Below, in pieces: positions 1-36,956 of a stretch of DNA of 64,000 bases (its first letter is position 1; each line of letters begins with the position of its first letter). The stretch is taken from positions 1 through 64,000 of the forward strand of contig JAKFWA010000070.1 of NCBI GenBank assembly GCA_021732995.1, written 5' to 3'. This stretch comes from Planctomycetaceae bacterium (GTDB lineage: Bacteria; Planctomycetota; Planctomycetia; Planctomycetales; Planctomycetaceae). The notes under the pieces are model-generated. The model was not told where the DNA came from. It made no database searches and saw only the letters and a list, made by a program, of their open reading frames with translations. Both the position numbers and the translations under genes were made by a program.

Positions 1-717
1 GTATTGCGATACCGGCTGCCGACAGGCGAGCGACACTTTTAATGCTACGGCTTCCGGGATCACAGTGTCCAACACTCCCGCACCAAAGAGTTGCCGGAGC
101 TTGCTCTGGTATTGTTGATGAATGACCAGCCGACTATCGCAGCGCGTCACCAAGTGACCGAGCAGTTGAAGGCGGGGATTCAGGTGACTGGCGTGTTCAA
201 TCCCTTGATGAACGAGCCGCAATCCCTGCGTGCCGAAGTCTTCCGGCGGAACCGGGATGACAACCTGGTCGGCGGCCAACATCGCATTCCAACTGCATTG
301 ATACAGGTTCGGCGGGCAGTCGATCAGCACCACGTCGTAGTCGGTCAATTCCGCCAAGAGTTGATGGATGGCAAACTGTTGTGACTCCGTGCATTCCGGC
401 GTGGGGACATTGAACTCGGCCAGCGTGTGATTGGCGCAGATCAGGTCGAGCCGTTCCAGTCCCGTCGGCAACGGCAAATTCGCAAATGATCGCCAAGCGG
501 AGCTTTCCGCAAAGCACGCCGCGAGTGTCTCCTCACCGGTAAGGGCCTCCACGAACGCCGAACCAAAGAACCCCTGGCTCAATGATCCCTGCGGATCGGC
601 ATCCACGAGCAGCACACGCAGTCCCGCCATCGCGAATTCCCCGCCCAAGTGAAAGCAGCACGAACTTTTTCCGCAGCCTCCCTTCTGGTTGATGAAGCAA
701 ATTGTCGTCGTTGCCAT
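1..717 (-). CDS. parA: ParA-family partition ATPase, C-terminus cut by window edge
   Basis: This P-loop ATPase of the ParA/Soj family drives segregation of plasmids or chromosomes by ATP-dependent DNA binding. The reading frame starts at an ATG at 717 and stays open for 239 codons to the window edge, so only a short C-terminal tail should be missing. Visible motifs are the deviant Walker A NQKGGCGKSS at residues 10-19, with the signature lysine of the family, a DADPQGS motif near residue 40 and the Walker B-like VVLIDCPPNLYQ. It is divergent from the replication initiator at 859, the classic arrangement of a plasmid rep-par module. No ParB partner is visible in the window, although a ParB-like domain occurs fused to a methyltransferase at 13227-14666. 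The family assignment is secure; the role in maintaining this particular element is inferred from the repA neighbour. Confidence 0.9.
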   Translation of the reverse strand, partial: MATTTICFINQKGGCGKSSCCFHLGGEFAMAGLRVLLVDADPQGSLSQGFFGSAFVEALTGEETLAACFAESSAWRSFANLPLPTGLERLDLICANHTLAEFNVPTPECTESQQFAIHQLLAELTDYDVVLIDCPPNLYQCSWNAMLAADQVVIPVPPEDFGTQGLRLVHQGIEHASHLNPRLQLLGHLVTRCDSRLVIHQQYQSKLRQLFGAGVLDTVIPEAVALKVSLACRQPVSQY

Positions 718-858
718 TCGTCTGCCGTGGTTCCGCCGAGCCGATTGCCAGTGGCAATTCCCGCCAAGCTGTTGAACTCCTTCAGAGATTCTTCTCACGG
801 CTTCGGACAGTCCGTCAAGAAGTATCTCGCGTGGCTCGGTGAAGATTCTGCTTTCGTG
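718..858. promoter_or_regulatory. divergent parA/repA intergenic control region
   Basis: This 141-bp gap separates the parA start from the chosen repA start and must hold the promoters of both divergent genes. The repA frame is open across it back to a GTG at 649, which would overlap parA. I prefer the ATG at 859, so this stretch is treated as regulatory. I could not assign convincing -35/-10 boxes. Confidence 0.35.
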
Positions 859-2265
859 ATGGCCGCTCATGTGTTACCGACCAGATTCATGAAGACATTC
901 CGGTCCCGGTCATCGGCCCCACGGCCCAACGCACAATCGCACGGTGTCGGGCAACTTTCTTTGGTCGAACATGCCCTCTGTCCGCTCGACGTTCGCCGCG
1001 TGGATCAGGCCGAAGGATTCAAGCATGAATCCCGTTACCAGTTCAGCGACAAGAGTGGACGACGGCGAACGGCCCGCGTGCGGGTTGTTTGCCCGCTGGG
1101 TCTGACACCGACCGACGAATTCTACTTGTGGGGACTGTTGGCACTCGCACTCGCCCAGCCTCAACCGACCGCCGAATTCCATGCGACACCCCACTACTGT
1201 CTGAGGCAGTTGGGGGTGATCGATCAGCATGGTCGGCGTGGCGGGCGACAGTACCGGCAATTCGCCGAGTCGCTCGAACGACTCGCGGCGGTCAGCTATC
1301 AGAACGATGGCTTCTATGATCCTGTGTGCCGAGAGCATCGCCGCGTCAGCTTCGGTTTCCTGAGTTACAACCTACCGCTATCGAACGATTCATCACGGGC
1401 TTGGCGAATTACCTGGGACGGTGTCTTCCTGGAGATGGCGAACACGGTCGGGGGCCATTTGCGATTCGACCTCGCCGTGTATCGGGAACTCGATCCCGCT
1501 GCCCGGCGACTCTTTCTCCTGCTCTGTAAACTGTTTCGCCGACAACGGACAACGCCGCGATTTGACTTGCAGTACCTTGGTGTGCAAGTCATGGGGTTCT
1601 CACCGACTCTGGCTCGCCGTGATCTGAAAGTGAAGGTCGCCAGAGTTGTGAAGCGGCTGACGGAACGGGGGATCGTGGCGGACTCACAAATTGATAGCGT
1701 GACGCAGAGCACGCGAAACGGATCGGCAGGTGTGATGCTCTCACGCGGGTCGTACTTCCGCCGGGATGGCTCGGAGAAGATGCTCGTGTCCCACACGGAA
1801 TCTCCGCTCGTCGAGTTGATGCAATCGTTGGGGCTGGATGCGGCGGCCATTGGACGCTGCCTGCGAACGTATCCCACCAGTCTGCTGCAACAATGGCTCG
1901 ACATCACGCTCGCGGCCCGCGAGCGACATGGTGCATCGTTCTTCCGGCGAAGTGCCGCCGCCTATTTCATCAACAACGTCCAAAACGCCGTCCAGGGAAA
2001 GCGAACGCCGCCAGATTGGTGGCACGACCTGCAACGACAAGAACGCCGTGCTCAAGCCCACGATCGCCGCCAGAAGCGAAACGTCCGCCCAGCTTCGGAC
2101 AAGTGTGATTCCTTTGAAGCACTCACCGAAGCCATCTTCCAACAGTTCCGTGGTGCGGGGCAATCCGACGATGTGGCACTCGCCAATGCAAACCAGTTCA
2201 TCAATGCCTGTCGGGCCGATCCACAAGCAGCCGGTCCCGCAGCACTGCTGAAGATTCTCAAGTAG
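859..2265 (+). CDS. plasmid replication initiator, RepA-like
   Basis: This is a predicted replication initiator of the RepA type (replication initiator protein A family), which binds iterons at a plasmid origin. The protein has 468 residues from the ATG at 859; the frame is open further upstream to a GTG at 649, but that would overlap parA and read low-complexity sequence. An N-terminal half with alternating helices and strands (including the stretch FLSYNLPLSNDSSRAWRI and an LDPAARRLFLLL helix) fits the winged-helix Rep fold, followed by a basic second winged-helix-like part around KVKVARVVKRLTERGIV. Divergent parA upstream and three iteron-like repeats downstream support the call. The C-terminal 150 residues are basic and not recognised. 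Start choice is uncertain, and the family was assigned from overall pattern rather than a diagnostic catalytic motif. Confidence 0.7.
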   Translation: MAAHVLPTRFMKTFRSRSSAPRPNAQSHGVGQLSLVEHALCPLDVRRVDQAEGFKHESRYQFSDKSGRRRTARVRVVCPLGLTPTDEFYLWGLLALALAQPQPTAEFHATPHYCLRQLGVIDQHGRRGGRQYRQFAESLERLAAVSYQNDGFYDPVCREHRRVSFGFLSYNLPLSNDSSRAWRITWDGVFLEMANTVGGHLRFDLAVYRELDPAARRLFLLLCKLFRRQRTTPRFDLQYLGVQVMGFSPTLARRDLKVKVARVVKRLTERGIVADSQIDSVTQSTRNGSAGVMLSRGSYFRRDGSEKMLVSHTESPLVELMQSLGLDAAAIGRCLRTYPTSLLQQWLDITLAARERHGASFFRRSAAAYFINNVQNAVQGKRTPPDWWHDLQRQERRAQAHDRRQKRNVRPASDKCDSFEALTEAIFQQFRGAGQSDDVALANANQFINACRADPQAAGPAALLKILK

Positions 2266-2536: not shown

Positions 2537-3208
2537 TTATGCACAACCGTTTGTCGTGCCTTCGCCAGCCGGTAAGCCGCTGGCCTGACTTGTTCGTGCG
2601 GCGGCGAGCATCGTCATTCGTCGATAAAGTTCGACTGTCGCTCGCACGTCGGTCATCGCGTCGTGAGCTTTCTCGGCGGGAAACGGGATCGCGAAATACT
2701 CACAGAGCGTGCCGAGCTTGAAATCAGTTGGTCGAGGCAGCGATGGGTCTTCGTGAAACAGCCACATTGCCCGGTGCAGTGTGCAGAAGACGCGATAGGA
2801 CGCTGGCAGGAACAATCCCAGTCGCTCAAACCATTCCCGCAAGGATGTGCCGTCGAACTCTGCGTGGTGGGCCACGAGTTGAGCGACCAAGAACGGTCGT
2901 TGATTCGTTGCCGTGATATCTGCCGTCGCGTGCCGCCCCAGAAAGCGGCCGAACTCGACAGCGACTACTTTCGGATGTTGCCCTTCACGACGCCACTGGT
3001 CGGCATCGAAGTGCCGATTGCGGATCAGCGCTGCCGGTGTTTTGCGTTCGTCAATCAGAACCTTGGCTTCGAAGGACTCTAACTCCTGCAAGGACCGTGA
3101 GACGGCGATGGCTGCGATCTGGAGTATGGGTCGATGACGCTTCACAATCGCCATCTCGATGTCCACGAAGACCAACCGCTCTGCGCGAGCGACGCGAACA
3201 GGTCTCAT
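2537..3208 (-). CDS. DnaQ-like DEDDh 3'-5' exonuclease
   Basis: This is a DEDDh-family exonuclease, related to the epsilon proofreading subunit of DNA polymerase III and to RNase T. From the ATG at 3208 the protein has 223 residues. Exo I is the VFVDIEM segment (D16, E18), Exo II lies in the HHAEFDG segment and Exo III is HDAMTDV with the catalytic His and Asp, so the four acidic residues and the histidine are present. The frame is open further upstream to 3484, but the family usually begins about ten residues before Exo I, which favours 3208. It is convergent with repA. On plasmids and phages such enzymes may process replication or repair intermediates, which is inference here. The residue after DIE is Met rather than the usual Thr. 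Confidence 0.8.
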   Translation of the reverse strand: MRPVRVARAERLVFVDIEMAIVKRHRPILQIAAIAVSRSLQELESFEAKVLIDERKTPAALIRNRHFDADQWRREGQHPKVVAVEFGRFLGRHATADITATNQRPFLVAQLVAHHAEFDGTSLREWFERLGLFLPASYRVFCTLHRAMWLFHEDPSLPRPTDFKLGTLCEYFAIPFPAEKAHDAMTDVRATVELYRRMTMLAAARTSQASGLPAGEGTTNGCA

Positions 3209-3489
3209 TCGACTGGGAGTGATGTATCGCCGACCGGGTCTCTTCCGCTTCATTCCCGACGCATTAGCACGGTTTCCTCGCCGATGGCAAATCGCTCCTT
3301 GCTCAAGCAGCAATCGTTTGTCGATTCGACCGCGACCGGTTGAGAAATCGCACCGGTACGGTATGGAGTGAAGCGCGGTCGGGAATCGGATCTCGACTGC
3401 GGCTGTTACTTCGTCAACGCGCCGCTCGGCACGTCGTGGTGAATCCCACGGCGAAAGGGCGGCGGCAAGATGTCGCTTCGACACCGGTC

Positions 3490-4680
3490 ACACCCGGTAA
3501 ACCGGACCTCACCAGTCCGGCTAAGGGGATGGTCTTACCAACCATCATGTGATCGGCCCGTAGAGCTGGATGCCAAGAGATTGGCTCGTCCAGTTCGACG
3601 GAGGCTTGTCGGAGTAATCCTGCTTTCGCGACGCGGCTGCCTTTGTTTCGCAGACGCATCGCACGCAGAGTAATCCCGACACTCTATCCGATCCGCCACG
3701 GGCGGTTCGCGCTTTCGACAAACGATGAGCGGCGAGCCGCCGACTGGGGGCGATGCGGACTGACCTGTGATGAGTTTCATCGCAGGCCGTCATGTTTCAA
3801 AGCGGGTGAGGCTCATCAGTTTGATGAGCGTAGTCCCGTCCAGGGGGTTCGGAGTCTCTGACTTCGTTCAACCTGGCTGGCGTGGGGAGCTTTCGACTGG
3901 AGACAGTCGAAACCGGACCTGACTCGTCCGGCGATCGGGAGCAAATCTCTCGACGGTGAAAAGCTCAACCATGAAAGGCCCGCGAGGGCTTGTCAGTGAG
4001 TCGTGCAGGAGACGGTGCCGAACTGCGAATGACTGTGGTCGGTGGGTAAGGGGACGCTTCTCCATTCGGTCCCCCGAAATCATCGGTGAGTTGCCTCGTG
4101 CAATTCCCGATGCAAACGGTGCTGGCTCGGAAGAGTCACGCACACAACCACGGTCCCTCCGGGTAATGCCGGATAGCGACGTGACCTGCAAGGCGAAGAG
4201 CATGACTAACGCAGGAAGGGCTTCAGGAGCCGGAATGGTATCCGGTGCTTCGCCTGGTCGGCGGAGTGATTCAAACCCTGAAGTCTGGGAGAGTGGCCTG
4301 AGTAGAAGCCGAGCGAACGTCACGACGGAAGTCGGTGCGGACATCGGGCGACTGACCTGCAAGGCTGTGGGAGGTCGTTGCTGCACTCACGGGTGGTGCC
4401 GGGGTGCGCAAGCACGACGAAAGGGCTGACGGGCACTTTTCAAAGTGTCGTAGCGACATGCTGCCGAACCGCCTTCGCGCGGTTCGGCAGTTCTTGATTG
4501 GACGCGAGCGGTTACACGAGACTGATTCGGAAGGATCGGTCTTCTGTGGCGGCGAACTGACGGCGAATGCCGAGCGTGTGTACTCACGCGGATGCGGACG
4601 CCAAGGGTTTTCTTTTTGGGTGGGTAGTATGGATTGGCGGCGGTGAACTCCTGAATGGAGTTTCCGCCGCCGCCATCACC
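3490..4680 (+). ncRNA. candidate large structured RNA, unassigned class
   Basis: About 1.2 kb shows no convincing coding frame but is dense in strong hairpins. Seen directly: CCGGAC/GTCCGG stems with 7-nt loops twice (3502-3520 and 3913-3931); GATGGT/ACCATC (3528-3546); a 10-bp stem with GTT loop (3764-3786); an 8-bp perfect stem with GTT loop (3811-3829); a 9-bp perfect stem closed by GAGA (3891-3912); a 6-bp stem closed by GCGA (3976-3991); CCGGA/TCCGG (4230-4245); GTGC-GCAA-GCAC (4404-4415); a 12-bp stem (4461-4490); and a 14-bp stem with an internal loop (4636-4671). Three GNRA tetraloops read correctly only on the plus strand. The phrase GACTGACCTG or close variants recurs at about 3757, 4174 and 4350. 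The RNA reading, ends and function are inference; it may be the long leader of the downstream gene. The gap 3209-3489 shows nothing further. Confidence 0.45.
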
Positions 4681-4835
4681 CGTGACGACGACAGCGTGGT
4701 TTCTCGTGGGCGAGGTGGCCTTGGAAGCCATCTTTGTTCGTCGGGCCACCACGGAGCGTTGTCTTGAGGATCGCGGCTTTTCGCGGAGTTTGTGCCCATA
4801 AACAAACTCCGCATTTCGGACTTGCACGGAGGCTC

Positions 4836-5606
4836 ATGCGGTATCGAGCTGAAACGACATCACTGGAAGGCTTCGTCCAACAGATTGCCTGCTGCTACCT
4901 GCGACACGGTTACTGGTTCTATGTGACCGGCTGCATCCCGCCCGACAAGGATGCTCGGGCCATTGATCGCAAACTCATTGCGAAGTACGGAATCGGAGTG
5001 TCGGAATCGACCCGTTCCCGGCGAAAGCGTCTGGGCCGGTCGAACCTGCAATACCTTCGACACCAACGACTGTTCGTGATCCTGGCAACCAAGGGACAGC
5101 ACGAGTTCTTTGATGTCGAGTTCAGGTCAATTCACGATATCCGGCATGTCCCGTTGAAATGCGGCGGTTACTCGATCAGCTACCGTCGAGGCGGCCGAAC
5201 TCGCACGGGCGACCGCGATGCCAAATGGCACGCTCATGTGGAAATCGAACGCCGCCGCTATCTGGAACTGAAGTCGCATTTTCTCGACATGGCAATTCAT
5301 CGTTCCGTGGAGAACCTCGCGCTGGCTTTCTACCAGATCCCCTTTGAACCTTACGCCCCGGTTCGACGGCAACTGCTCAACATCTGGCGCGCGGTGAATC
5401 GAGCCAGACAAAAGGCGGGCTATCAGCCGGTTCCGGTGGAAGTGATACCGCTCCGACGACGCATTGTGCGTCCGTTCGGCAGCGACACGGGAATTGAGAA
5501 TTGTTCCGTTCAAGGATCGGGTGGTCCCGAAGTCGGCCGTGTTCGGAGCAGTGTGAAGGATTTGTTGCACTCGCTTCATGCGAAAAAGCCCCTTCGGCGA
5601 GATTGA
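4836..5606 (+). CDS. basic protein of unknown function downstream of the structured RNA
   Basis: This gene encodes 256 residues from the ATG at 4836, which is preceded by a clear GGAGG at 4828-4832. The frame is open back to 4734, but nothing there looks coding. I do not recognise a characterised domain. Visible features are an N-terminal GYWFYVTGCIPPDKDARAID segment, a very basic patch STRSRRKRLGRSNLQYLRHQ, a hydrophobic strand RLFVILATKG, a GGYSISYRRGG motif and a C-terminal QIPFEPYAPVRRQLLNI helix. There is no HNH, RuvC, reverse transcriptase or HUH motif. The high basic charge and position directly behind a long structured RNA suggest nucleic-acid binding, which is inference. It ends over a terminator hairpin shared with the convergent ArdC-like gene. 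Confidence 0.7.
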   Translation: MRYRAETTSLEGFVQQIACCYLRHGYWFYVTGCIPPDKDARAIDRKLIAKYGIGVSESTRSRRKRLGRSNLQYLRHQRLFVILATKGQHEFFDVEFRSIHDIRHVPLKCGGYSISYRRGGRTRTGDRDAKWHAHVEIERRRYLELKSHFLDMAIHRSVENLALAFYQIPFEPYAPVRRQLLNIWRAVNRARQKAGYQPVPVEVIPLRRRIVRPFGSDTGIENCSVQGSGGPEVGRVRSSVKDLLHSLHAKKPLRRD

Positions 5607-5634: not shown

Positions 5635-6486
5635 TCACGCGGCCAGCGTGGAGTTGACCTCTCGCGCCATGCCATCGTGCTTGGCCCGAATTGCGGTGAT
5701 GATCTCGGTGGCGGCCTTCTGCACGAACGTCAGGGACTCCCGGAGCGTTTCTTCGTTGCCTCGGTAGAGCTGGATGTAGTCGGCGCTGCGGGTTGTCGTA
5801 TCAATGCCACACGACAGGCAGACGGCATAGGCCACGGCCTCCGCTTCCGTCTCGCGGATTCGCTGATTGGTTTCCTTGCGTCGCTCCGTGCGTTGGTGGA
5901 GCAACTCGTGGGCGAATTCGTGTGCCAGCACGGCGAATGTCTTACCGGGGTCCAGATCAGGACGGACTCGGATCTTTCCCGGCATGGAACAGCCGAGTGC
6001 GCCGCGGGGCAGGAATTCATATTCCAGGTCGATTCCCGCCTCGCGGATAGACTCTTGCAGGTGACTCAGCCAGTCACCCGGTTCTCCAATCGCGTTCGCG
6101 AATTCTGGCATGGGTTCACCTTCGGTCTGCGTCACGTCGAACACATAGGCCACCTTGAAGCCGAAAATCAGGCCCGAATCACCGTCTCGTTGTTCAGGCC
6201 CGCGTTGTTCCCGATTCTTGTGCGAAACCATCGGGGCCAGAATCGCGATGCCGTGCTCTCCCTTCTTCACAGAACGATTGAATTTCTTCCAGGCGTGGAA
6301 TCCGGCGACGTGAGTTGCTTCCGGCTTCTGCGCTGCAATCAGAATGGCATTCCCAAAACTGTAATTATGAAAACGAGCCAGTGTGGCCAGGAATCGTTCC
6401 AGCGTCTCGCTGTGTCCTGCTTTCAAGGCATCGTTCAAGGCGGCAATCCCGTTCTCGACCAGTTTCATTGCTTCTTCGCGTTTCAT
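5635..6486 (-). CDS. ArdC-like antirestriction protein with ImmA/IrrE-type zinc peptidase
   Basis: This protein has 283 residues and two parts. The first, residues 1-115, matches the ArdC N-terminal ssDNA-binding domain (DUF1738): FHNYSFGNAILIAAQ followed by the GFHAWKKFNR and KGEHGIAILAP motifs. The second is an IrrE-like metallopeptidase with HEFAH at residues 189-193 and a downstream ETEAEAVAYAV helix supplying the third ligand. ArdC proteins protect incoming plasmid DNA from host restriction, so the gene fits a mobile element. The start at 6486 is set by AAGGAG nine bases upstream. A structured element (6574-6653) lies about 90 bp upstream in its probable leader, and a terminator follows it. 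It is separated from the next upstream gene by 336 bp, so it is probably transcribed from its own promoter. Confidence 0.85.
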   Translation of the reverse strand: MKREEAMKLVENGIAALNDALKAGHSETLERFLATLARFHNYSFGNAILIAAQKPEATHVAGFHAWKKFNRSVKKGEHGIAILAPMVSHKNREQRGPEQRDGDSGLIFGFKVAYVFDVTQTEGEPMPEFANAIGEPGDWLSHLQESIREAGIDLEYEFLPRGALGCSMPGKIRVRPDLDPGKTFAVLAHEFAHELLHQRTERRKETNQRIRETEAEAVAYAVCLSCGIDTTTRSADYIQLYRGNEETLRESLTFVQKAATEIITAIRAKHDGMAREVNSTLAA

Positions 6487-6573
6487 GGTTGTTTTCTCCT
6501 TGTGCATCGTCACAGCCGACAACTGCGACGTTGATCTGAAAAATGACCTGCCGGTGGCCAGCCCGAAATGGAG

Positions 6574-6653
6574 CACGGCAAGTCAAGGTGGAGCCTTGGC
6601 CGCAGGCCAAGCAGCAGCGGACGCCATCGGCGGGAGCGGACCTTGACGCCGTG
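6574..6653 (-). repeat. three-way-junction element, copy 1, upstream of the ArdC-like gene
   Basis: This 80-bp element has an outer stem of CACGGC plus GTCAAGGT (6574-6589, AA bulge) pairing with ACCTTGAC plus GCCGTG (6640-6653). It encloses a hairpin CTTGGCC-GCA-GGCCAAG (6595-6611) and a weaker CGCC/GGCG hairpin. A second copy with a compensatory base change lies at 18775-18848. Both copies are 85 to 90 bp upstream of minus-strand genes, so a leader RNA or a DNA-level recognition site are both possible. The rest of 6487-6822 contains one further hairpin, GTCCGACC/GTCGGAC at 6727-6744, and no gene. Confidence 0.6.
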
Positions 6654-13190: not shown

Positions 13191-13228
13191 GATTGAGTTG
13201 CTCGAAACGGCAACGAGCGAACTCAATC
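13191..13228 (-). terminator. strong hairpin over the methyltransferase stop codon
   Basis: GATTGAGTT (13191-13199) pairs with AACTCAATC (13220-13228), and GCTCG with CGAGC inside it, giving a 14-bp stem with one bulge. It overlaps the stop of the minus-strand methyltransferase gene. No T-run follows, so it may be a transcript-stabilising or processing hairpin rather than an intrinsic terminator. The rest of 13002-13190 shows no gene. Confidence 0.45.
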
Positions 13229-14666
13229 AAGACCTCATGGAAATTCGTTCGCCAGCGAATCGTGCAAACTTTTGGTTCGCTTCAATCCCGATGAATCGCC
13301 GAACACTTTCAACCGAGGCAACGCCGGTGGTGCCGGAACCACTGAATGGGTCGATGACCAGATCGCCGGGTTGGCTGGCACAGAGCACGATGGGGCGGAC
13401 GAGGGCCAGTGGGAGTTGGGTGGGGAAGTCGGGCAGGCGTTCACGGCTGTTTTCGACGAGACGGGGGATGCACCAGACGTTGTCCCAGAGTTTGCCGTGG
13501 GGGTTGGCTCGTGAGTCGGCGTATTTGGATTGGCGGTCGGACGGGCGCGAGACGGCGTCCGCGTTGAAGACGAAGCGGCGCGGGTTCTTGACACAGTAGA
13601 AAATGTGCCGCGAGCAGCGATTGAAATTGTTCGTGCAGTTCACGCCGAACGTCTCGTACCACTTGATCCACGAGCGGCGATGTAGTCCGGCCTCGCGAAG
13701 CAGCAGACCGAAGTGGTCGGCGTATTCGTCAGAGATCATCACCCACAGACTGCCGTCATCAGTCAGCACGCGAACGCACGCTTTGATCCAACGGCGACAC
13801 CATGCGAGATACGCTTCGTCAGAAAGTGAATCCGCCTTGCGGCCAGGACCGTAGTCGATGCCTTGGTTGTACGGCGGATCGGCGAAGACGAGTCGAGCCG
13901 TTCCAGGTTTCAGCTTTGCCAGTTCTTCGACACAGTCACCGTAGCGGATCTCCCAATTCGATTCGTCACGATGTGGACGCGCGGCCCGCGACAATCGCCG
14001 TTGCTCTTGGCGTTTCGATTCGCGGTCGGCTTCTCGTTTGGCGACGGTCAGCCGTTGCTCACCGGCTTTGACCTGTTCGTAGAGTTGCGGGGCGACCTGT
14101 TTCAATTGTTGAGCGGCGCGGATTCGGCGTTCCGAGACGCGATATGTCACCGCCACCGTGCCGCGAGAAGTCTTTGTTCTCGACTGCTTCCCGACCGATG
14201 TGATCGGCAAGCTATTGCTCGGCTTCGCCCGACCACGTCCGCCGGTCAGCCCACCCTGTCGAGCGCGTTCCCGCGTGGCGATCCGGCTCAGAATCTCCAT
14301 CTCTTCCCGTGCGAGGCACGCCCGTTGGTCGTCGGTCAGGTGACGGCGTTTGGTGGCCGCACGCAGCATGTAGATGACGGGATCGTCGCCATTCAGCGGT
14401 GCGCGGATCACGGGGACTCGTTTGATACCCAGCCGTCTGGCAGCCAGATAGCGGCTCCTGCCATCGACGATGACGCGCCCGGCGATAATCTCGATGGGAA
14501 CGCGAACACCTCGCTCAGCGATGTCCGCTTGGAACTCTGCATTCTGTTCCGGCGGCATCCGGGGAACGCGGTTCGCTTCGGGATGAAGCCGCAGTGATTT
14601 CAGGGGCACGAGTTTCATTCGGGTTTTGATGTCTGCGTTCGCGGCGCGGATTCGCAGTTGGACCAT
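13227..14666 (-). CDS. ParB/sulfiredoxin-like domain fused to DNA methyltransferase
   Basis: This protein has 479 residues. Residues 15-110 form a ParB N-terminal-like domain: LVPLKSLRLHPEANR, IEIIAGRVIVDGRSRYLAAR and the GDDPVIYMLRA segment. A basic linker with an HTH-like AVTYRVSERRIRAAQQL follows. The C-terminal half is an N4/N6 amino methyltransferase of the beta order: catalytic DPPYNQG (263-269) precedes the SAM-binding DPFSGSGTT (439-447). It should methylate adenine N6 or cytosine N4 in DNA. Such ParB-MTase fusions are common on phages and plasmids, where they may protect DNA from restriction; no cognate endonuclease is seen here, so it looks like an orphan. The start is uncertain: 14666 is chosen, 14618 is also possible, and an AAGGAGGG sits about 50 bp further upstream. 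Confidence 0.85.
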   Translation of the reverse strand: MVQLRIRAANADIKTRMKLVPLKSLRLHPEANRVPRMPPEQNAEFQADIAERGVRVPIEIIAGRVIVDGRSRYLAARRLGIKRVPVIRAPLNGDDPVIYMLRAATKRRHLTDDQRACLAREEMEILSRIATRERARQGGLTGGRGRAKPSNSLPITSVGKQSRTKTSRGTVAVTYRVSERRIRAAQQLKQVAPQLYEQVKAGEQRLTVAKREADRESKRQEQRRLSRAARPHRDESNWEIRYGDCVEELAKLKPGTARLVFADPPYNQGIDYGPGRKADSLSDEAYLAWCRRWIKACVRVLTDDGSLWVMISDEYADHFGLLLREAGLHRRSWIKWYETFGVNCTNNFNRCSRHIFYCVKNPRRFVFNADAVSRPSDRQSKYADSRANPHGKLWDNVWCIPRLVENSRERLPDFPTQLPLALVRPIVLCASQPGDLVIDPFSGSGTTGVASVESVRRFIGIEANQKFARFAGERISMRS

Positions 14667-14754
14667 GCTCGTCAGCGTGTGTGGAGAGGGGCGGGTGGTG
14701 CCGCTCTCCAAACCCTCCTTTCTGGACGATGACGGTTGGAGACAATGGCGATGC

Positions 14755-15060
14755 TTAGTAATGCTCGCCGTCGCCGTTTGATCCGTCTCCGTTGTGACTA
14801 CTGCTGTTGCTGGATTGCTCGAAGATCCACGAGTGGGCCTGGTCGCAGACCTTGGCCACCAAGGGCAGGTCATCGCGGCCAAAGCTGGCAGAGTCTTTCC
14901 AGTCGTCGCCGTCCTTGTAGAGACGGGAGATGGTCACGTTGTGACGTGTGCCAGCCTCCGTTTCATTCTGCCAGATGGCGGCGCGGATGCGGCCGAAGCG
15001 GATTTCGTGAACCGGACGGTTCTTCGCTTCTTTGGGTTTCGGTTTCGTGGCGGTTGCCAT
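14755..15060 (-). CDS. small conserved-type hypothetical protein
   Basis: This gene encodes 101 residues starting at ATG 15060 with AAGGAG eight bases upstream. The core reads PVHEIRFGRIRAAIWQNETE followed by a TISRLYKDGDDWKDSASFGR segment, ending in a low-complexity Ser/Asn/Gly/Asp tail. The compact core with alternating strands and basic residues looks like a small single-domain protein, possibly nucleic-acid binding, but I cannot name a function. It sits between the DUF932 group and the ParB-methyltransferase gene in the same direction. Confidence 0.75.
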   Translation of the reverse strand: MATATKPKPKEAKNRPVHEIRFGRIRAAIWQNETEAGTRHNVTISRLYKDGDDWKDSASFGRDDLPLVAKVCDQAHSWIFEQSSNSSSHNGDGSNGDGEHY

Positions 15061-20855: not shown

Positions 20856-20931
20856 GTAATGTGACGCGCGAGTCCGTAAATCATGCCGAGTCTCGTCGTC
20901 AACAGGTGTTTTTTTGGGGGGGGGATGGGAA

Positions 20932-22464
20932 ATGTATCGAGGACGGGCAAATCAAATCATCATCCTTGCCGCAGCGATCACGGTTGCCGTATCCGGGTGC
21001 AAAGTCGGCCCAGATTGCCGCGCCTGGCATGATCCCCTCAGAAGCGATTGGCGATTGCAACTTGATGAAAGCCTTCGCACCGATGGTGCGCTGGATCAAA
21101 CGTGGTGGGTAGGCTTCAACGACCCGGCACTGAATATGTTGGTGGATCGATCAGTCGCCCAGAACCTGTCATTGCAGGAGGCCGCTGCGCGGATTCAAGA
21201 GTCGCGAGCACGGGTAGGGGTTTCGCGGGGAGGTCTGTTCCCGACAGTCAATCAGATTGATTCGTACAAGCGGATCGACATCAGCGACAATGGAAGTCCG
21301 TTCGGAATCACCGGACTCAGTTTTCCACCTTTTGATCTCTGGTCAACGGGCTTCGACGTTTCGTGGGAGATCGACGTTTTTGGTGCTGTCAGGCGGACAA
21401 TGGAAGCGGCCCGTGCAGACCTTGATGCCTCCGTCGAGAACCGGAACGCGTTGCAGGTGACGCTGCTGGGTGATGTTGCCACGAATTACGTGTCACTTCG
21501 AGCCATCGAACAGCGGATCGTCAACGCCGCAGAAAACGTGCGGATTCAAGAAGAAACGGTGCGGATCACGCAAGAAAGGTTTAACGCGGGAACAGTCAGC
21601 GAACTGGATGTCTCACAAGCCAAGACGCTGCATTATCGCACTCAATCTACGATTCCACTGCTTCAGCGCGAACGGGATCGCACCATGAACCGACTGTGCG
21701 TTCTGCAAGGTGAGCAGCCCCGAAACCTGGACGAGATCATCGAACCCAACGGTTCGATACCGCAGCCCCCGTCGAGTATCGACATTGGAATTCCCATCAA
21801 CTTGGTGAGGCAGCGCCCTGATATCCGGCGGGCCGAGTGGGAGGTCGTCGCGCAATCGGCGCGGATTGGAGTGGCAACGGCTGATCTGTACCCTCGATTC
21901 TCGCTGATCGGCATCTTCACGCTCGATTCCGTCAACCTGAATCAACTGTTTGATGCTGACAGTTTGGCGATGCGCGTGGGACCAGAGGTCCGATGGAACA
22001 TTCTCAACTTCGGTCGAGTGCGAAGTAACATCGCGGTACAAGATGCGAGGTTTGACCAAGCCGTGACACGCTACCGTCAAGCCGTTCTGGAAGCCGTCGA
22101 AGAGGTCGAGAATGCTTTGGCTGGCTACCGCCGCTATCGGGAATCGGAGAAAGGATTAGCCTTAGCTGTTGAATCCGCCCGCAGTGCGGCCCGAACCGCC
22201 TCCGAGCAATACAAAGCCGGAGCGGTGAGTTTCCAGACGCTGCTGGACGCGGAAAGGTCGTTGGCACTAGCACAAGATGAACACATCTCCGTTCAGGGCA
22301 ACGTCACGCTCAGCGTCGTTCAACTCTACAAAGCTCTTGGTGGCGGGTGGGATTGGAGCAGTGCTTCTGGATGGTCGTCGTTGCCCGTCCCTCCTGAACC
22401 GGTCGAGGTTCCTCCTCCCAGCGTACCGGCGGCGGACAATCTGCCAGAACCGCCAAATCCCTAA
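20932..22464 (+). CDS. RND efflux outer-membrane factor (NodT/OprM family lipoprotein)
   Basis: This is the outer-membrane channel of a tripartite efflux pump. The 510-residue protein starts with a lipoprotein signal, IIILAAAITVAVSGCKVGPD, with the lipobox VSGC. It then shows the repeated helical outer-membrane-efflux domains: LDQTWWVGFNDPALNMLVD, SLQEAAARIQESRARVG and, in the second repeat, TASEQYKAGAVSFQTLLDAE. The motif RQRPDIRRAEWEV is characteristic of the family. The C-terminus is Pro/Glu-rich. The ATG at 20932 (GGGAA upstream) is preferred to 20914 because it puts the signal peptide at the start. A run of nine Gs precedes it. It leads the efflux cluster, 124 bp ahead of the TetR gene. 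Confidence 0.92.
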   Translation: MYRGRANQIIILAAAITVAVSGCKVGPDCRAWHDPLRSDWRLQLDESLRTDGALDQTWWVGFNDPALNMLVDRSVAQNLSLQEAAARIQESRARVGVSRGGLFPTVNQIDSYKRIDISDNGSPFGITGLSFPPFDLWSTGFDVSWEIDVFGAVRRTMEAARADLDASVENRNALQVTLLGDVATNYVSLRAIEQRIVNAAENVRIQEETVRITQERFNAGTVSELDVSQAKTLHYRTQSTIPLLQRERDRTMNRLCVLQGEQPRNLDEIIEPNGSIPQPPSSIDIGIPINLVRQRPDIRRAEWEVVAQSARIGVATADLYPRFSLIGIFTLDSVNLNQLFDADSLAMRVGPEVRWNILNFGRVRSNIAVQDARFDQAVTRYRQAVLEAVEEVENALAGYRRYRESEKGLALAVESARSAARTASEQYKAGAVSFQTLLDAERSLALAQDEHISVQGNVTLSVVQLYKALGGGWDWSSASGWSSLPVPPEPVEVPPPSVPAADNLPEPPNP

Positions 22465-22502
22465 CATGCAGGGCAGACAAAGAATGGGGGCGGTCATTGC
22501 TC

Positions 22503-22541
22503 TTGACTTAGCGAGTGACATTTCACAGAATTATCGGACGG
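22503..22541 (+). promoter_or_regulatory. tetR promoter with overlapping candidate operator
   Basis: TTGACT (22503-22508) and CAGAAT (22526-22531) form a sigma70-like promoter with 17-bp spacing. TTATCGGACGG (22531-22541), the reverse complement of CCGTCCGATAA found before the outer-membrane-factor gene, starts at the -10 box. A repressor bound here would block transcription, which fits autoregulation by the TetR protein. Confidence 0.5.
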
Positions 22542-22587
22542 ACGAGTCCGGCACAAAATACTAATCCCAGACTCAGGAGAAGTCCCA

Positions 22588-23238
22588 ATGACACAGACGG
22601 CACCAGTACGGCGAGGTCCGGGAAGGCCCCGCGATGCCGAATTGCCGGAGCGTCGGCGACGCGAGATCCTCGAAGTGGCGACGCGCAAGTTCGCACAAAA
22701 CGGCTTTGCGGCCACCGATGTCCAATTCGTGGCCGATGAACTGAACGTCGGTAAAGGGACTGTTTATCGCTACTTTCCCAGCAAGGAAGACTTGTTCCTG
22801 GCCGCCGTCGATCAAGGAATGCAACAACTCAAAACCGTCATCGATCAGGCCGCTGGGCAAGCGGGGACGGCCATTGAACGAGTGGAGTTAGGCGTCAAGG
22901 CGTATCTCGAATACTTCGACCAACACCCCGATGTCATCGAACTGGTGATTCAAGAGCGGTCAAACTTTCGTGATCGCGTGCGTCCGACATACTTCGTGCA
23001 TCGCGACGCCAACATTGGGCCGTGGAAGGATTTGTTCCAGAAGATGATGGACGATGGGCTGGTTCGCAACGTGCCTGTCGAACGGATCACCGAGGTGATT
23101 TCGGATTTGCTCTACGGCACGATATTCACGAACCATTTCGCCGGGCGAAAGAAATCGCTGGCCAGCCAGTGCGAGGACGTGCTCGACATTCTGTTTCACG
23201 GGTTGCTGATCAATGGGAAGCGAGAGGCGCATGCCTAA
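22588..23238 (+). CDS. TetR/AcrR-family repressor
   Basis: This 216-residue regulator has an N-terminal TetR HTH: RRREILEVATRKFAQNGFAA, then DVQFVADELNVGKGTVYRYF and the PSKEDLFLAAV helix. The C-terminal ligand-binding half is typical of the AcrR group. An AGGAG ribosome-binding site precedes ATG 22588. It lies inside the efflux cluster and overlaps the fusion-protein gene by 8 bp, so it is made from the same message as the pump, suggesting feedback control. The shared 11-bp element at 20845-20855 and 22531-22541 is its likely operator. The inducer is unknown. Confidence 0.92.
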   Translation: MTQTAPVRRGPGRPRDAELPERRRREILEVATRKFAQNGFAATDVQFVADELNVGKGTVYRYFPSKEDLFLAAVDQGMQQLKTVIDQAAGQAGTAIERVELGVKAYLEYFDQHPDVIELVIQERSNFRDRVRPTYFVHRDANIGPWKDLFQKMMDDGLVRNVPVERITEVISDLLYGTIFTNHFAGRKKSLASQCEDVLDILFHGLLINGKREAHA

Positions 23239-24544
23239 TCTTTGTCGGTCAACCGGAAATCGCTCTTCGCTGTGCCTGGCGGCGGCTTGGATCGTACTGT
23301 ATGCCAGCATGGCCTGCCTTGCCGGTTGCCATTCCAAGAAACCCGAGCCAGCGAAGGCGGAGTCCGTCGCGGCCCCCCCCGCCTCGGTGCCCGTCAGCGT
23401 CGCGTCCGTCGAAGTTCGGGCAGTGCAAAGGCGTGTATCTGTCGTCGGAACTCTGCACGGGTTTGAACGAATCACGATCACCCCCAAGGTTGAGGGTCGG
23501 GTTCAAGCCATCAAGTTCGATGTCGGTGATCGTGTACCACAGAACACAACTCTATTGAAGCTTGATCCAATCGATTATCAGTTGGCGGTGGAAGAGTCAC
23601 AGCGTGCGTTGGAACAGGAATTGTCGCGTCTCGACCTGACGAAACCGCCGACTGATGATTTCGATGTGGAGCGACTCCCGGCACTCGTTCGAGCGCACCT
23701 CTTGCTGGAAAACGCCCAGCGGCAGTTTGAGCGGCAAAAGACGCTGATTGCCACTAACGCGGGGGTGAAACAAAGCTACGACCAGGCCGAAACGGACCTG
23801 AAAGTCGCGGATGCAACCATGCGACAGGCACGAATCGACGCCCGCACCACCTTGGCTGCCGTCAGACAACGTGAAGCAATGCTCTCACTCGCCCGGCAGA
23901 AACTCAGTGAAACGCAGGTGAACAGCCCTGCTCTGGCGGCCATTCCCGATTCCAGCACACCTGCACGATTCGTCGTTTCCAAGCGAATGGCCTCCGTCGG
24001 TGAAGTGGTCCGCGCGTTTCCGTCAACGCCCGTGTTTGAGCTGGTCATGGATGACGTCCTCAAGCTCCACGTCATGATTCCGGAACGGTACATGTCGCAA
24101 GTGCAGTTGGAATTGGATGTCGAGGTTCATGTCGAGGCTTATCCCAATGAAATGTTTCCTGGCAAGGTCGCGAGGATCAATCCGACCGTCGATCCGCAAA
24201 GCCGCTCGTTCGATGTCGAAGCGCACATTCCCAACCCCGACCATCGTCTCAAACACGGTGGCTTCGCCAAGGCTGAGGTGATCGTCGGAAAAGCGGCTGA
24301 GGCGCTCACCGTACCGCTTGAAGCCGTGACACGATTCGCGGGCGTTTCCAAAGTGTTCACGATCCGTGATGAGAAGGCTCAGGAAGTCGAAATCGTCATC
24401 GGCACGCAGGGACCAGGTTGGGTTGAAGCGCTCGGTGGACTGCAAGCTGGAGATGTGGTCGTCACCAGCGGGCAATCGCGACTGGCGAACGGGACGCGCG
24501 TCACGGTTCGGGAAAATGTCACCACGACGGCACGTCGCGACTGA
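23231..24544 (+). CDS. RND efflux membrane fusion protein (HlyD/AcrA type)
   Basis: This periplasmic adaptor links the RND pump to the outer-membrane channel. The 437-residue protein has a lipoprotein signal ending MACLAGCHSKK, a biotinyl-lipoyl half-motif GRVQAIKFDVGDRVPQNT, a long helical hairpin (about residues 110-240), and a beta-barrel with IPERYMSQVQLELDVEV. The late segment ALTVPLEAVTRFAGVSKVFT is typical of the family. The ATG at 23231 overlaps the tetR stop and has GAGAGG just upstream; 23213 would lack a binding site. It is followed after 47 bp by the RND gene. Confidence 0.92.
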   Translation: MPNLCRSTGNRSSLCLAAAWIVLYASMACLAGCHSKKPEPAKAESVAAPPASVPVSVASVEVRAVQRRVSVVGTLHGFERITITPKVEGRVQAIKFDVGDRVPQNTTLLKLDPIDYQLAVEESQRALEQELSRLDLTKPPTDDFDVERLPALVRAHLLLENAQRQFERQKTLIATNAGVKQSYDQAETDLKVADATMRQARIDARTTLAAVRQREAMLSLARQKLSETQVNSPALAAIPDSSTPARFVVSKRMASVGEVVRAFPSTPVFELVMDDVLKLHVMIPERYMSQVQLELDVEVHVEAYPNEMFPGKVARINPTVDPQSRSFDVEAHIPNPDHRLKHGGFAKAEVIVGKAAEALTVPLEAVTRFAGVSKVFTIRDEKAQEVEIVIGTQGPGWVEALGGLQAGDVVVTSGQSRLANGTRVTVRENVTTTARRD

Positions 24545-32589: not shown

Positions 32590-35196
32590 ATGAAAATACT
32601 CAAGCTCAGCATTCTGCTTTTGTTCGGAAGCATCGGCACTATCCAGATCGCCGAGGGTCAGGAGACTCCGATCTCTTTAGAGGCGGCTAAAGAACAGGGA
32701 CGCAGCAAGTCCAGATTCTTGAAAGAGACCAAGGAAGTCACGAAGGCTGTTGACGTCGCTCCCAAAGCAAATGTCGCATTCTTTCGGGAGTCGGTCGGAC
32801 CGATTCTCAAGAAGAGCTGCCTGGCCTGTCATGGACCCGAAAAGGCAGAGGGCCGACTTCGCATCGACCAACTGAATCCGGACATCCTGACCGGCCCTGA
32901 TGCTGAGCGGTGGCGCGAGGTCTTCAACGCACTCAGCAAATCCGAGATGCCCCCGAAGGACGAGCCGGCCTATGCACTCGCGGACGCGGATCGGGGCCGC
33001 ATTGTCGATTGGCTCAGCGAGGAACTGAATACGGCGTCTGTCATACGTCGCAACAGCAAAGAGCATTCGTCTTTTCGCCGGTTGACGAAGTACGAATACA
33101 ACTACGCTCTGCAGGACCTGCTTGGTCTGCCCTATTCGCTCGCGAATTCGCTGCCGCCGGAAACCGCCTCTGAGGAGGGTTTCAAGAACAGCTCGGAACT
33201 GCTGCAGATGTCTGTCATGCAGTTCGAGACGTATCGGGAGATTGGACTCAAAGCCCTGAAACGCGCCACCGTGAGTGGTGAGCGTCCGCAACCCGTCACC
33301 TACATCATTTCGATGCCGGAAGAGATGGCGAAGGCGGAGTCCAAAAAGGATGACAAGGAAACCGACAAGAGCAAGAAGCCCACCAGGAAGCCCAAAAATC
33401 AGCAGCAGTTATTCAATCGAGAGACGGACGACAGCGTTCCGTTTGGCGAGAGAAAGATCATGCCTCGTGCAGAGGCCGTTGCCGGGCAGACGCCCGCCGT
33501 TTCTCCCATCGTGCTGGTTCTGCCCCGATCGAACGAATTGAAGCTTGACCTGGATCGTTTTCTTCCCGACGAAGGCACGATGCGTGTTCGCATTCGAGCC
33601 GGTCGTTCGACGATGAACCCTGACGAGCATGCAAGCCTGCGTCTGATCTTCAGCGCGCATACCAGTAACAACGCCAACTTCTCGCAGGTCGTCAGTGAGC
33701 ATGATATCCCCGTCACGGCTTCCGCCGACGACCCGCAATTCATTCACTTCGACATCCAGCTAAGCGATATCCAGCGCAACCCGTTCCGAAAGCTCGCTAC
33801 AACATTTCCCAGACGGGACGAGTTTCTGCACATTCACAATGTCTCGAATGCACACGGCGGGGAGCCTCTCCAGGTTCTGATCGACTACATCGAAATCAGC
33901 GCTCCGTTCTACGAGCAGTGGCCGCCGAAGACTCACACCGACATCTTCTTTGAGAGCGCCAACAAGGGTGACGAGCAGGTCTATGGCCGCGAGGTGCTGA
34001 GCCGATTTCTGAGACGCGTTTGGCGTCGCCCCGTCGCCGCGCAGGAAGTCGATCAGTTCATGGCCCTGTTTGCGAAGTACCGGCCGGGATTCGCGACGTT
34101 CGAAGACGCGATGGTGGAAGTTCTGGCAACCGCGCTCGCCACGCCGGAGTTCCTCTATCTGACTCAACGAGTAACGACCGATGAGACGAAGTCCTCGGCA
34201 AGAATCAGTGAGCTGGAGCTGGCCAGCCGGCTCTCCGTATTTCTGTGGTCCAGTATTCCGGACGACGAACTGCTGAAACTCGCGGAGCAAGGAAAGCTCA
34301 GAGAGCCGGAAGTTCTGACCGCTCAAATCAAACGCATGCTGGCGGACCCGCGTTCACAACGATTCTCTCAGAACTTCGTTGAGCAATGGCTGGGTTTGGA
34401 CAGGATGAATAGTGTCACTCATGTGACTGATAGTTCGTTGAGAGACGCGATGCAGGAAGAGCCCGTCGCGTTCTTTGATGAGGTGCTGAAGCAAAACCAC
34501 AGCATCATGGACTTCATCCATTCCGATTACGCTGTGGTGAACGAGCGGCTCGCAGCGCACTATCGGATTCCCAAGGTCTACGGTCCTGATTTCCGCAAGG
34601 TGTCCGTCACCCCGCAAATGAATCGCGGCGGTCTGCTGACGTCTGCCGCGATCATGACCATGAACTCGGACGGCAAGGATTCGCATCCGCTCAAGCGTGG
34701 CGTCTGGATGCTGAAGCGCATTCTTGACGATCCGTCACCGCCGCCACCGCCGAATGTTCCGGAAGTCGACCTGACCGACCCGGAGATTCTAAAGATGACT
34801 CTCAAAGAACGGATCGCAAATCATCGGAACAAGCCGGCCTGCATTTCGTGTCACGCCAAGATCGACCCGTGGGGCATCGCGTTTGAGAACTACGACGCTC
34901 TCGGAACATTTCGAACTCAAATCGGTAACCAACCTGTCGATGCGACTGCGGAACTCTTCAATCGGCAAACGCTGGCTGGGGTAGATGGGCTCAAGCGGTA
35001 TTTGCTGACCGACCGACAAGATCAATTCGCCAGAGCGATGGTGCATAAGCTGACGGCCTACGCTCTGGGCAGACCACTTTCCTTTGGCGACCGTGCTGAC
35101 ATAGACCAGTTGACCGCACAGTTCAGAAGACGGGATGATGGCTTGGGCGACATGATCCACCTGATCATCAGCAGTAACCTCTTCAACTCGAAGTAG
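32590..35196 (+). CDS. DUF1592/DUF1588-type planctomycete haem-motif protein
   Basis: This 868-residue exported protein belongs to the planctomycete multidomain family DUF1587-DUF1592-DUF1588-DUF1585. The signal peptide is KILKLSILLLFGSIGTIQIA. A cytochrome-like CLACH (77-81) sits in KKSCLACHGPEKAEGRLRID, the hallmark of the planctomycete cytochrome C-like domain, and a second CISCH motif lies near residue 755 before KIDPWGIAFENYDALG. A Lys/Glu-rich linker (about 245-280) is inserted before the carbohydrate-binding-like region. Such proteins are almost always paired with a DUF1552 protein, as here at 35376. They are thought to be part of a periplasmic oxidation or binding apparatus, but no reaction is established. 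Two CxxCH motifs are seen; haem binding is inferred. Confidence 0.92.
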   Translation: MKILKLSILLLFGSIGTIQIAEGQETPISLEAAKEQGRSKSRFLKETKEVTKAVDVAPKANVAFFRESVGPILKKSCLACHGPEKAEGRLRIDQLNPDILTGPDAERWREVFNALSKSEMPPKDEPAYALADADRGRIVDWLSEELNTASVIRRNSKEHSSFRRLTKYEYNYALQDLLGLPYSLANSLPPETASEEGFKNSSELLQMSVMQFETYREIGLKALKRATVSGERPQPVTYIISMPEEMAKAESKKDDKETDKSKKPTRKPKNQQQLFNRETDDSVPFGERKIMPRAEAVAGQTPAVSPIVLVLPRSNELKLDLDRFLPDEGTMRVRIRAGRSTMNPDEHASLRLIFSAHTSNNANFSQVVSEHDIPVTASADDPQFIHFDIQLSDIQRNPFRKLATTFPRRDEFLHIHNVSNAHGGEPLQVLIDYIEISAPFYEQWPPKTHTDIFFESANKGDEQVYGREVLSRFLRRVWRRPVAAQEVDQFMALFAKYRPGFATFEDAMVEVLATALATPEFLYLTQRVTTDETKSSARISELELASRLSVFLWSSIPDDELLKLAEQGKLREPEVLTAQIKRMLADPRSQRFSQNFVEQWLGLDRMNSVTHVTDSSLRDAMQEEPVAFFDEVLKQNHSIMDFIHSDYAVVNERLAAHYRIPKVYGPDFRKVSVTPQMNRGGLLTSAAIMTMNSDGKDSHPLKRGVWMLKRILDDPSPPPPPNVPEVDLTDPEILKMTLKERIANHRNKPACISCHAKIDPWGIAFENYDALGTFRTQIGNQPVDATAELFNRQTLAGVDGLKRYLLTDRQDQFARAMVHKLTAYALGRPLSFGDRADIDQLTAQFRRRDDGLGDMIHLIISSNLFNSK

Positions 35197-35234
35197 AACA
35201 ACCTGCAGACGTGTTTCTAGTAGCTGTCGAATTT

Positions 35235-35335: not shown

Positions 35336-35375
35336 GTACCTTTTGCATCGGGCTATCTAGCGTCCGCGAAAGACT

Positions 35376-36773: not shown

Positions 36774-36855
36774 GAGGCGCGCATGAGCGCGAGAAGTGAA
36801 GGCTGGCCAGAGGCAGCTTCTTTCGCTGAGCAGAGCCTGAAACGGCATCGACAAG

Positions 36856-36919: not shown

Positions 36920-36956
36920 TCTTTACCTTGAGTTCAGGTTTGAAGGCGGAATGATC

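Follow-up and report, generated by a model that had tools for sequence, protein, structure and literature searches.

A circularly permuted group II ribozyme in a planctomycete and AcpG, the protein encoded behind it, as a candidate dead intron maturase

A stretch of 64,000 nucleotides from a Planctomycetaceae bacterium (contig JAKFWA010000070.1, positions 1 to 64,000; hereafter the window) carries on its plus strand a large structured RNA followed directly by an open reading frame (ORF) of 256 codons. This RNA belongs to the circularly permuted (CP) group II ribozymes and has the order P1/P2-D5-D6-circle-D1-D2-D3-D4, with the ORF next in line. CP group II RNAs (T-large) and the associated protein AcpG were described by Roth et al. 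(2021; PMC8637638), and profile comparisons identify the 256-residue protein as a distant homologue of AcpG. Judged by its predicted fold, AcpG may be a miniaturised, catalytically dead group II reverse transcriptase (RT)/maturase, comparable with Prp8. Taken together, the class of the RNA, the reading of AcpG as a dead maturase and the splicing mechanism proposed below make up an account that we consider probable.

D5 and D6 normally form the 3′ end of a group II intron. In the window they sit at the 5′ end of the structured region, with only two small stem-loops ahead of them, and D1- to D4-like domains come after; the layout is thus that of the CP group II RNAs (Roth et al., 2021). Structure, covariation and splice-site motifs place the RNA in this class. 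The parts of the unit are as follows.

3485-3555, plus strand: 5′ stem-loops of the P1/P2 type, named by analogy with Roth et al. (2021), including the hairpin 3502-3520 with loop CTCACCA.
3563-3596, plus strand: D5 catalytic hairpin with AGC triad (3564-3566), GNRA loop and 2-nt bulge, from RF00029.
3597-3692, plus strand: D6, with predicted branch-point A 3686 and predicted 3′ splice site after 3692, from RF00029 and covariation.
3693-3747, plus strand: linker between the reversed splice sites, the predicted 55-nt RNA circle, from the end of D6 and the 5′ splice-site motif.
3748-4206, plus strand: 5′ splice site GGGCGATGCGGA at 3748 (from the motif), then D1, named by position.
4210-4295, plus strand: D2, with hairpin 4229-4246, from the consensus fold, named by position.
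4296-4426, plus strand: D3, with closing pairs 4296-4299/4423-4426 and covarying hairpins, from the consensus fold, named by position.
4427-4812, plus strand: D4 region, ending in a strong hairpin (4783-4812) just ahead of the ORF, named by position.
4828-4832, plus strand: Shine-Dalgarno sequence GGAGG, 3 nt ahead of the ATG.
4836-5606, plus strand: acpG homologue, 256 aa, with predicted palm and thumb and without conserved catalytic aspartates, from profile homology and AlphaFold.

The only gathering-level match in Rfam 15 was to RF00029 (group II D5-D6), at 3561-3692 with 44.1 bits, and a plastid group II D5 model matched the same bases below threshold (E ≤ 1). The classes that a first-pass annotation of this DNA had offered as examples (GOLLD, ROOL, HEARO, OLE and RNA-guided nucleases) did not hold up: no Rfam model of GOLLD, ROOL, HEARO, OLE or group I introns matched, and an RNA-guided nuclease, or any known domain, was rejected for the protein of the window, which had neither a Pfam nor an NCBIfam match.

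Covariation among homologues, to which the same annotation had looked for support, was found. In a D5-D6 alignment of 39 sequences, which left out loci L077 and L090 (nested canonical D5) and L122 (missed by the pattern), 98.4% of the 1014 cells were paired, and 17 of the 26 pairs changed on both sides. D5 (14 bp, 99.6% paired) had double-sided changes in 9 pairs and D6 (12 bp, 97% paired) in 8. Double-change cells numbered 208, against a mean of 54 after shuffling (0 of 500 shuffles reached the observed value) and at most 28 in slid controls. The triad of D5 was A in 36/39 sequences and G and C in 39/39. The bulged branch-point A (3686) was invariant in all 39 and flanked by covarying pairs, and the basal pair of D6 varied between C-G, U-A and G-C.

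In a consensus fold of 14 full RNAs, most helices 3′ of the 5′ splice site showed double-sided changes, a count made without a shuffle control. The 5′ stem-loops (3485-3555) were kept among the 14 relatives; the outer stem had 4 of its 7 bp changed on both sides, the P2 hairpin 5 of 6. The closing stem of D1 (3789-3795/4200-4206) covaried in 5/7 bp, and the terminal hairpin of D4 (4783-4812; 11 bp, 91% paired) had double-sided changes in 9 pairs. The UGGU loop of the D2 hairpin is complementary to ACCA in the P2 loop in most of the 14 sequences (read by eye; nearly invariant).

The splice sites are predictions from the end of D6 and the 5′ motif. The motif GGGCGAYGC, usually continued GGA, follows D6, and its strict pattern matched 31 of 42 RNAs. 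At 3748, GGGCGATGCGGA agrees with GGGCG, which marks the 5′ splice site in this RNA class (Roth et al., 2021; PMC8637638). Plasmid pTT8 carries GGGCGACCCGGACAG on the strand opposite its AcpG gene. The linker, 55 nt long here, measures 12-85 nt in the 13 relatives with agreeing determinations of the D6 end.

What the first-pass annotation had proposed was an RNA-protein unit: about 1.2 kb without convincing coding, strongly structured, and behind it an ORF for a basic protein of 256 residues. Folding of 3485-4480 gave z = -5.45, and none of 20 dinucleotide shuffles folded as well. Eight ORFs of 67-172 aa inside the RNA region, on both strands, had no Pfam match at E ≤ 0.01. The structured region and the ORF lie at the positions that the annotation gave, and GGAGG (4828-4832) stands 3 nt ahead of ATG 4836. 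Together, covariation, linkage (see below) and the lack of a protein-family match for any ORF in the RNA support the proposal: the RNA-protein unit is real and can be assigned to a class. The proposed search region, from 3209 onwards, reached too far upstream, since the bases up to 3484 belong to a minus-strand ORF (2537-3484) with an RNase_T exonuclease domain. Three GNRA loops were present as claimed. GAGA at 3900 caps a covarying stem (8/9 bp) and GCGA at 3982 an invariant one, and another pairing takes the place of the GCAA hairpin at 4408 in the consensus fold. The stems 3502-3520 (the P2-type hairpin) and 3913-3931 (a D1 hairpin) are identical in the window, as noted; they differ from each other in relatives, so that their identity looks like coincidence and a meaningful repeat was rejected.

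Homologues of the protein were gathered first, so that the RNA could be tested afterwards. They came from 16 of 99 related genomes, from seven plasmid records (Leptolyngbya, Calothrix, Planococcus and Planctomycetes bacterium K2D) and from the GTDB species set, where 142 loci were found and the best 80 taken; these 80 named loci are mostly planctomycete. Cultured planctomycetes are among the carriers of the unit: Rhodopirellula sp. JC639 (L115) and the isolates K23_9 and TBK1r (L067, L069 and L127). A strict D5 pattern occurred on the strand of the protein in 41 of the 80 and on the other strand in none. Among the 67 named loci with at least 1.3 kb of upstream sequence (13/80 had less and were excluded), 65 matched a D5-D6 covariance model, always upstream of acpG and on the same strand, at 1086-2145 nt from the ORF (median 1366). 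The protein is thus nearly always preceded by the same RNA, as the idea of a unit had implied. Members of the model accounted for 38 of the 65, and 27 of the 29 loci outside it matched as well. Of the two unmatched loci, L064 (Rhodopirellula europaea) seems to have a 5′-truncated RNA and L126 a broken ORF without RNA; in L064, an ArdC relative appears to replace the 5′ part of the RNA.

The model also matched 26 of 29 further loci, 9 of which are the same sequences as named loci; the others were L028 (contig end), L051 (a 46-residue remnant) and L052 (Thermus pTT8). The RNA-acpG arrangement recurs on the Leptolyngbya and Calothrix plasmids, with D5-D6 at 68 and 94 bits, respectively. With a D5-D6 match of at least 56 bits counted as RNA, 14 of the 99 genomes had RNA and protein, 2 RNA only, 2 protein only and 81 neither. 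The RNA-only copies look decayed in G007 and intact in L160 (G009:C326).

Matches of the D5-D6 model at 33-47 bits are presumably canonical group II introns, and two of them adjoin intron RT genes in this genome. Genome G016 holds seven acpG matches in six places and seven places with CP-type RNA, together with 14 D5-D6 matches of equal score (37.3 bits), probably one canonical intron in many copies. Canonical-type group II D5-D6 were also found nested in the CP RNA's own D5, at ~2341-3038 of L077 and ~7003-7745 of L047, and in L036/L090 they lie upstream of the CP D6, inside the CP D5. The halves of the CP D5 are ~0.7 kb apart in L077 and L047, and a complete D5 would re-form if the inner intron spliced out. 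This nested element looks like an ORF-less ribozyme, since the 4 kb upstream contain no ORF of at least 150 aa with YxDD.

Database searches returned little for the protein family. Pfam gave only scattered weak matches among 27 members (best E 0.0066) and none for five other members and Thermus AcpG, and a PDB sequence search with the family found no convincing relative (best E 0.16). From its size and position, we take L052:6164-6940, the ~260-aa ORF divergent from the RNA on pTT8, to be TTHC007, the Thermus AcpG; the record used has other tags. Family alignment A1 matched Thermus AcpG in one hhalign comparison with probability 94.3 (E 1e-7, 167 columns), and alignment A5 did so with probability 80.5 (E 1.3e-5). 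In an hmmsearch of six-frame ORFs from 12 loci, all six Thermus AcpG ORFs ranked right after two profile members, with E of 7.5e-8 to 0.064 and a best single domain of 2.8e-4, values that refer to a small search set. Codon positions 1, 2 and 3 of the acpG ORF differed from six relatives by ~15-24%, 11-15% and 48-55%, respectively, which shows that acpG is under purifying selection.

These results bear on a reading of the locus as a canonical group II intron in decay, with its pieces in shuffled order and no present function. Some copies do look decayed (L126 and L159) or truncated (L064). Against such decay stand the same permuted order in 65/67 loci, the compensatory changes that D5-D6 and most of the consensus-fold helices show, and the purifying selection on acpG, and we regard this reading as highly improbable.

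A viral origin was rejected as well: 0 of 24 stretches were confirmed viral, with one encoding stretch counted without a locus and records of near-identical genomes possibly left out, and a BFVD fold search gave weak, mixed matches. The Thermus thermophilus plasmid pTthSNM1-1f (L141, 4719 bp) is annotated with a CopG-type protein, an AcpG homologue and one hypothetical protein; the rest is mostly unannotated in the PLSDB table, which is incomplete.

The case for a CP ribozyme with a maturase-like partner turns on the predicted fold of AcpG. AlphaFold models of the window protein (pLDDT 90.3, pTM 0.81; 77 sequences) and of a second, tail-less member from L117 (pLDDT 93.3, pTM 0.86; 48 sequences) had the same top structural match, 8h2h, a group II intron RT in an intron RNP, with Z 10.2 (197 residues aligned, 4.2 Å) and Z 9.7 (194 residues, 5.8 Å), respectively. 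Next came further group II RTs in intron RNPs (8fli, 8t2r, 8t2s, 6me0 and 7uim), and then GsI-IIC, G2L4, DRT9 and spliceosome chains, in a ranking by VIA, which re-aligns the top 1000 Foldseek matches only. Group II RTs filled the first six rows for model 1 (Z 10.2-8.8) and the first nine for model 2 (Z 9.7-8.1, with G2L4 counted as group II-like), and all 50 rows shown for model 2 were RT, spliceosome or viral polymerase chains. The spliceosome chains, which we take to be Prp8 (so named in 4i43), and Prp8:Aar2 scored Z 7-8. Foldseek itself gave best E values of 9.2e-3 and 2.3e-3, both to the retron Eco8 RT, with 8h2h third for model 2 (4.3e-3).

The models predict a palm and a thumb in RT topology, with the superposition taken as a whole and not residue by residue. 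In that of the window protein, the order of secondary-structure elements, by our own mapping, agrees with RT2 to thumb. AcpG is predicted to comprise a palm, in which the RT3 strand and the YxDD hairpin are degenerate, then RT7 and a thumb/X-like end of three helices.

For comparison with sequences, sets of seven and twenty planctomycete group II RTs were used, including two of this genome. The best gapless 13-residue register between AcpG and RTs spanned YADD in 4/4 comparisons. With the seven-RT set, YQMVRYADDFVVL of the intron-encoded proteins lay against LQYLRHQRLFVIL of AcpG at residue 71, and RT7 was next in order, with DVREAAFEFLGYH against DIRHVPLKCGGYS at 101. R75, just before the mapped Asp pair, was invariant (77/77). 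By this inferred mapping, the first catalytic Asp position is mostly R/S/N (Asp in 5/77) and the second F/W/T, and neither a conserved YxDD nor a conserved RT3 Asp occurs in the 77 AcpG sequences. RVT_1 and GIIM had no Pfam match in AcpG sequences. The remark of the first-pass annotation that the protein has no RT pattern is therefore right for the sequence, whereas its predicted fold is nearest to group II RTs. AcpG appears RT-like by predicted fold; we do not class it as a reverse transcriptase, because the sequence traces are non-significant and the aspartates are not conserved.

A number of results pull away from the reading of the unit as a ribozyme with a dead maturase. On the side of the protein, the two AlphaFold models share most of their alignment and are not independent, and neither had a Foldseek match at E ≤ 0.001. 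Values of Z 7-8 are typical of unmatched models, and Z 8-10 lies only moderately above this; the fold case thus rests on the consistency of the matches (50 rows, model 2). Comparison of AcpG with group II RT profiles by hhalign stayed below a probability of 1%, at 0.3, 0.3 and 0.1, and at 0.5 with the deeper RT set, where the alignment was the expected collinear RT5-RT7-thumb stretch from YADD. The score of the motif register was reached by 15-68 of 200 column shuffles. On the side of the RNA, the unconstrained consensus fold paired the base of D6 elsewhere (3602-3606/4775-4779 and 3684-3689/4622-4627), with the upper D6 stem retained. In a search for pairing between the exon- and intron-binding sites (EBS1-IBS1), the best column complementarity was 0.79-0.83, against mean maxima of 0.76-0.81 in shuffled columns; one of four settings put it above all 30 shuffles, and in the other three it fell within their range. 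The association has gaps in both directions. L160 (G009:C326, RNA at 2003 of the locus) has an intact-looking CP RNA and no acpG in the 2 kb downstream; acpG is therefore not always needed. G068 (L161) likewise has RNA without acpG, as does G016 (L162), there at a contig end, and the Calothrix plasmid has a second CP-type D5-D6 (L055, 2639-2740, 80.5 bits) with no acpG behind it. Conversely, a partial acpG copy (G089:C103, the second copy in L041, residues 43-214) has no upstream RNA match. The Planococcus match (L056, 40 bits) is ambiguous, being no higher than the presumed canonical introns.

The points on the side of the protein leave room for a CP group II ribozyme paired with an RNA-binding protein of non-RT origin and with a fold of its own, the palm-like β-α core of which only resembles polymerases. 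The lack of a significant sequence profile link to group II RTs and the Foldseek E values above 0.001 speak for such a protein. It is harder to reconcile with the ranking of group II RTs first by Z for both models, with the 50 rows of RT, Prp8 or viral polymerase chains, with a secondary-structure order that fits RT2 to thumb and with a genetic partner and slot that match those of an intron RT; we therefore think it unlikely.

On balance, we favor the view that AcpG is a former intron-encoded protein that was kept after a permutation through D4, lost RT activity and shrank to a maturase. In canonical group II introns, the protein ORF lies within D4, ahead of D5, and in the C97 intron of this genome the maturase domain ends ~140 nt before D5. 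A permutation break in D4 behind the ORF therefore gives the slot that acpG occupies: an RT-encoding intron would have been cut there and its pieces rejoined in swapped order as D5-D6-D1-D2-D3-D4-ORF, the order that is seen. This argument from the slot does not fit Thermus, where gene and RNA are in divergent orientation (Roth et al., 2021; PMC8637638), another point on the contrary side; the divergent arrangement would then be derived.

For other CP group II RNAs, the reaction reported is branching at the 5′ splice site followed by release of a circle (PMC8637638). Here, the transcript would fold with D5 docked on D1, and the 2′-OH of the bulged D6 adenosine (3686) would attack the 5′ splice site (3747/3748). 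In a second attack, the 3′ end of the linker, now free, would act on the 3′ splice site (3692/3693), releasing a 55-nt RNA circle and leaving a branched RNA. AcpG may bind the RNA as a dedicated maturase that helps it fold, as canonical intron proteins do with their own introns. We infer the activity of this copy, the binding of RNA by AcpG and its descent from an intron RT.

In the surroundings, the following gene lies upstream of the RNA.

649-2265, plus strand: Rep-like protein, 538 aa, a plasmid-type replication gene.

Neither Pfam nor NCBIfam matched it; with 'Replication initiator protein A', encoded on plasmid pK2D_1, it shares 25% identity across 208 aa (E 1.6e-10). Of the 47 named loci with at least 4.5 kb of upstream sequence, 27 have a related Rep upstream on the same strand, mostly ~2-4.5 kb away, and the Rep of the window has relatives in only 22/99 genomes. 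The acpG-less CP RNA of L160 also has a Rep gene upstream. Directly behind acpG, an ArdC-type antirestriction protein is encoded (5635-6576, minus strand), so that ArdC and the RNase_T exonuclease flank the unit here. The unit tends to lie in plasmid-type replicons.

This setting invites an explanation in which the RNA serves chiefly as a long 5′ leader for the control of acpG expression, the ribozyme reaction switches translation and AcpG acts elsewhere, for example in plasmid replication. It would account for acpG lying directly behind on the same strand, with a conserved hairpin ahead of the Shine-Dalgarno sequence, and for the frequent Rep gene upstream; it is also partly compatible with a ribozyme served by a maturase. 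A leader would not explain why the group II architecture (D5, the D6 branch-point A and the splice-site motifs) is maintained, why the RNA exists without acpG (L160) or why the gene is divergent in Thermus (PMC8637638), and we consider it improbable. Replication of pTT8 is reported to change little when almost the whole ribozyme is removed (PMC8637638).

A circular plasmid was rejected for the contig, which has no terminal repeat in its 88,732 bases. Further along, 9 of 10 large ORFs scanned had Pfam domains fitting a planctomycete chromosome. In the window, 20914-24541 and 32590-49145 hold genes for efflux along with sulfatase, esterase and PSCyt/PSD genes of the usual planctomycete kind, an ordinary chromosomal setting. 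The protein encoded at 13227-14882 (minus strand) has an adenine-specific DNA methyltransferase domain, which scores below the NCBIfam cut-offs, and its N terminus weakly matches the ParB type.

The 2021 description left open the nature of AcpG, its tie to the ribozyme and the missing intron protein, and it states that AcpG has no homology to any known protein class and that the intron ORF was seemingly 'jettisoned' from CP group II introns (PMC8637638). New here are two confident AlphaFold models that resemble group II RT/maturases best, together with catalytic aspartates that appear not to be conserved. If correct, a dead, shortened intron RT in the slot of the intron protein would answer all three points with one testable statement and would explain why the ORF seemed jettisoned (Roth et al., 2021). 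A group II machine would then have given up mobility through the loss of RT catalysis and kept the RT as a scaffold. It would offer a compact bacterial model for the change of an RT into a protein that only scaffolds RNA, a step usually told only for Prp8. The family now also takes in Planctomycetota, where it often occurs close to plasmid-type Rep genes, and plasmids of cyanobacteria; dozens of named loci are at hand for comparison. Among the matches listed in a search of open-access literature, which takes in neither subscription papers nor bioRxiv, only Roth et al. (2021) dealt with natural CP group II RNAs and AcpG; the others used the terms in passing or AcpG with other meanings.

The RNA shares with the CP group II T-large class the order D5-D6-D1-D4, the GGGCG 5′ splice site, the bulged D6 adenosine, the short linker between reversed splice sites, the P2-type hairpin and a protein of ~260 aa. 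The main text of Roth et al. (2021; PMC8637638) gives Deinococcus-Thermus, Firmicutes and Proteobacteria as phyla, and neither 'Planctomycet' nor 'cyanobacteri' occurs in it; unlike the RNAs treated there, ours are present in Planctomycetota and on cyanobacterial plasmids. Moreover, acpG is nearly always directly downstream on the same strand here, in contrast to the mixed orientation and loose association of the RNAs in that report (PMC8637638), and the D5-D6 covariance model built from our relatives does not match pTT8. The planctomycete protein resembles Thermus AcpG (TTHC007) in size, linkage to a CP group II RNA and profile homology, and differs from it in an identity of ~22% in the alignment and in the C-terminal part, which is different in Thermus. 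The prediction of a fold like that of group II RTs concerns the planctomycete branch, Thermus AcpG having been compared by sequence only.

In Prp8, a dead RT core serves as the scaffold of an RNA catalyst of group II-like kind, and the CP group II RNA with AcpG, if read correctly, would be a bacterial parallel of spliceosomal RNA with Prp8. Unlike AcpG, Prp8 is much larger and eukaryotic and has many more domains, and no direct descent is claimed. Compared with group II intron RTs, AcpG has about half the length, no conserved YADD or RT3 aspartate and no significant sequence similarity. With the group II intron RT/maturases (8h2h, 8fli, 8t2r, 6me0 and the GsI-IIC RT 6ar1), it shares the predicted order of palm and thumb and a gene at the D4-D5 position of a group II ribozyme.

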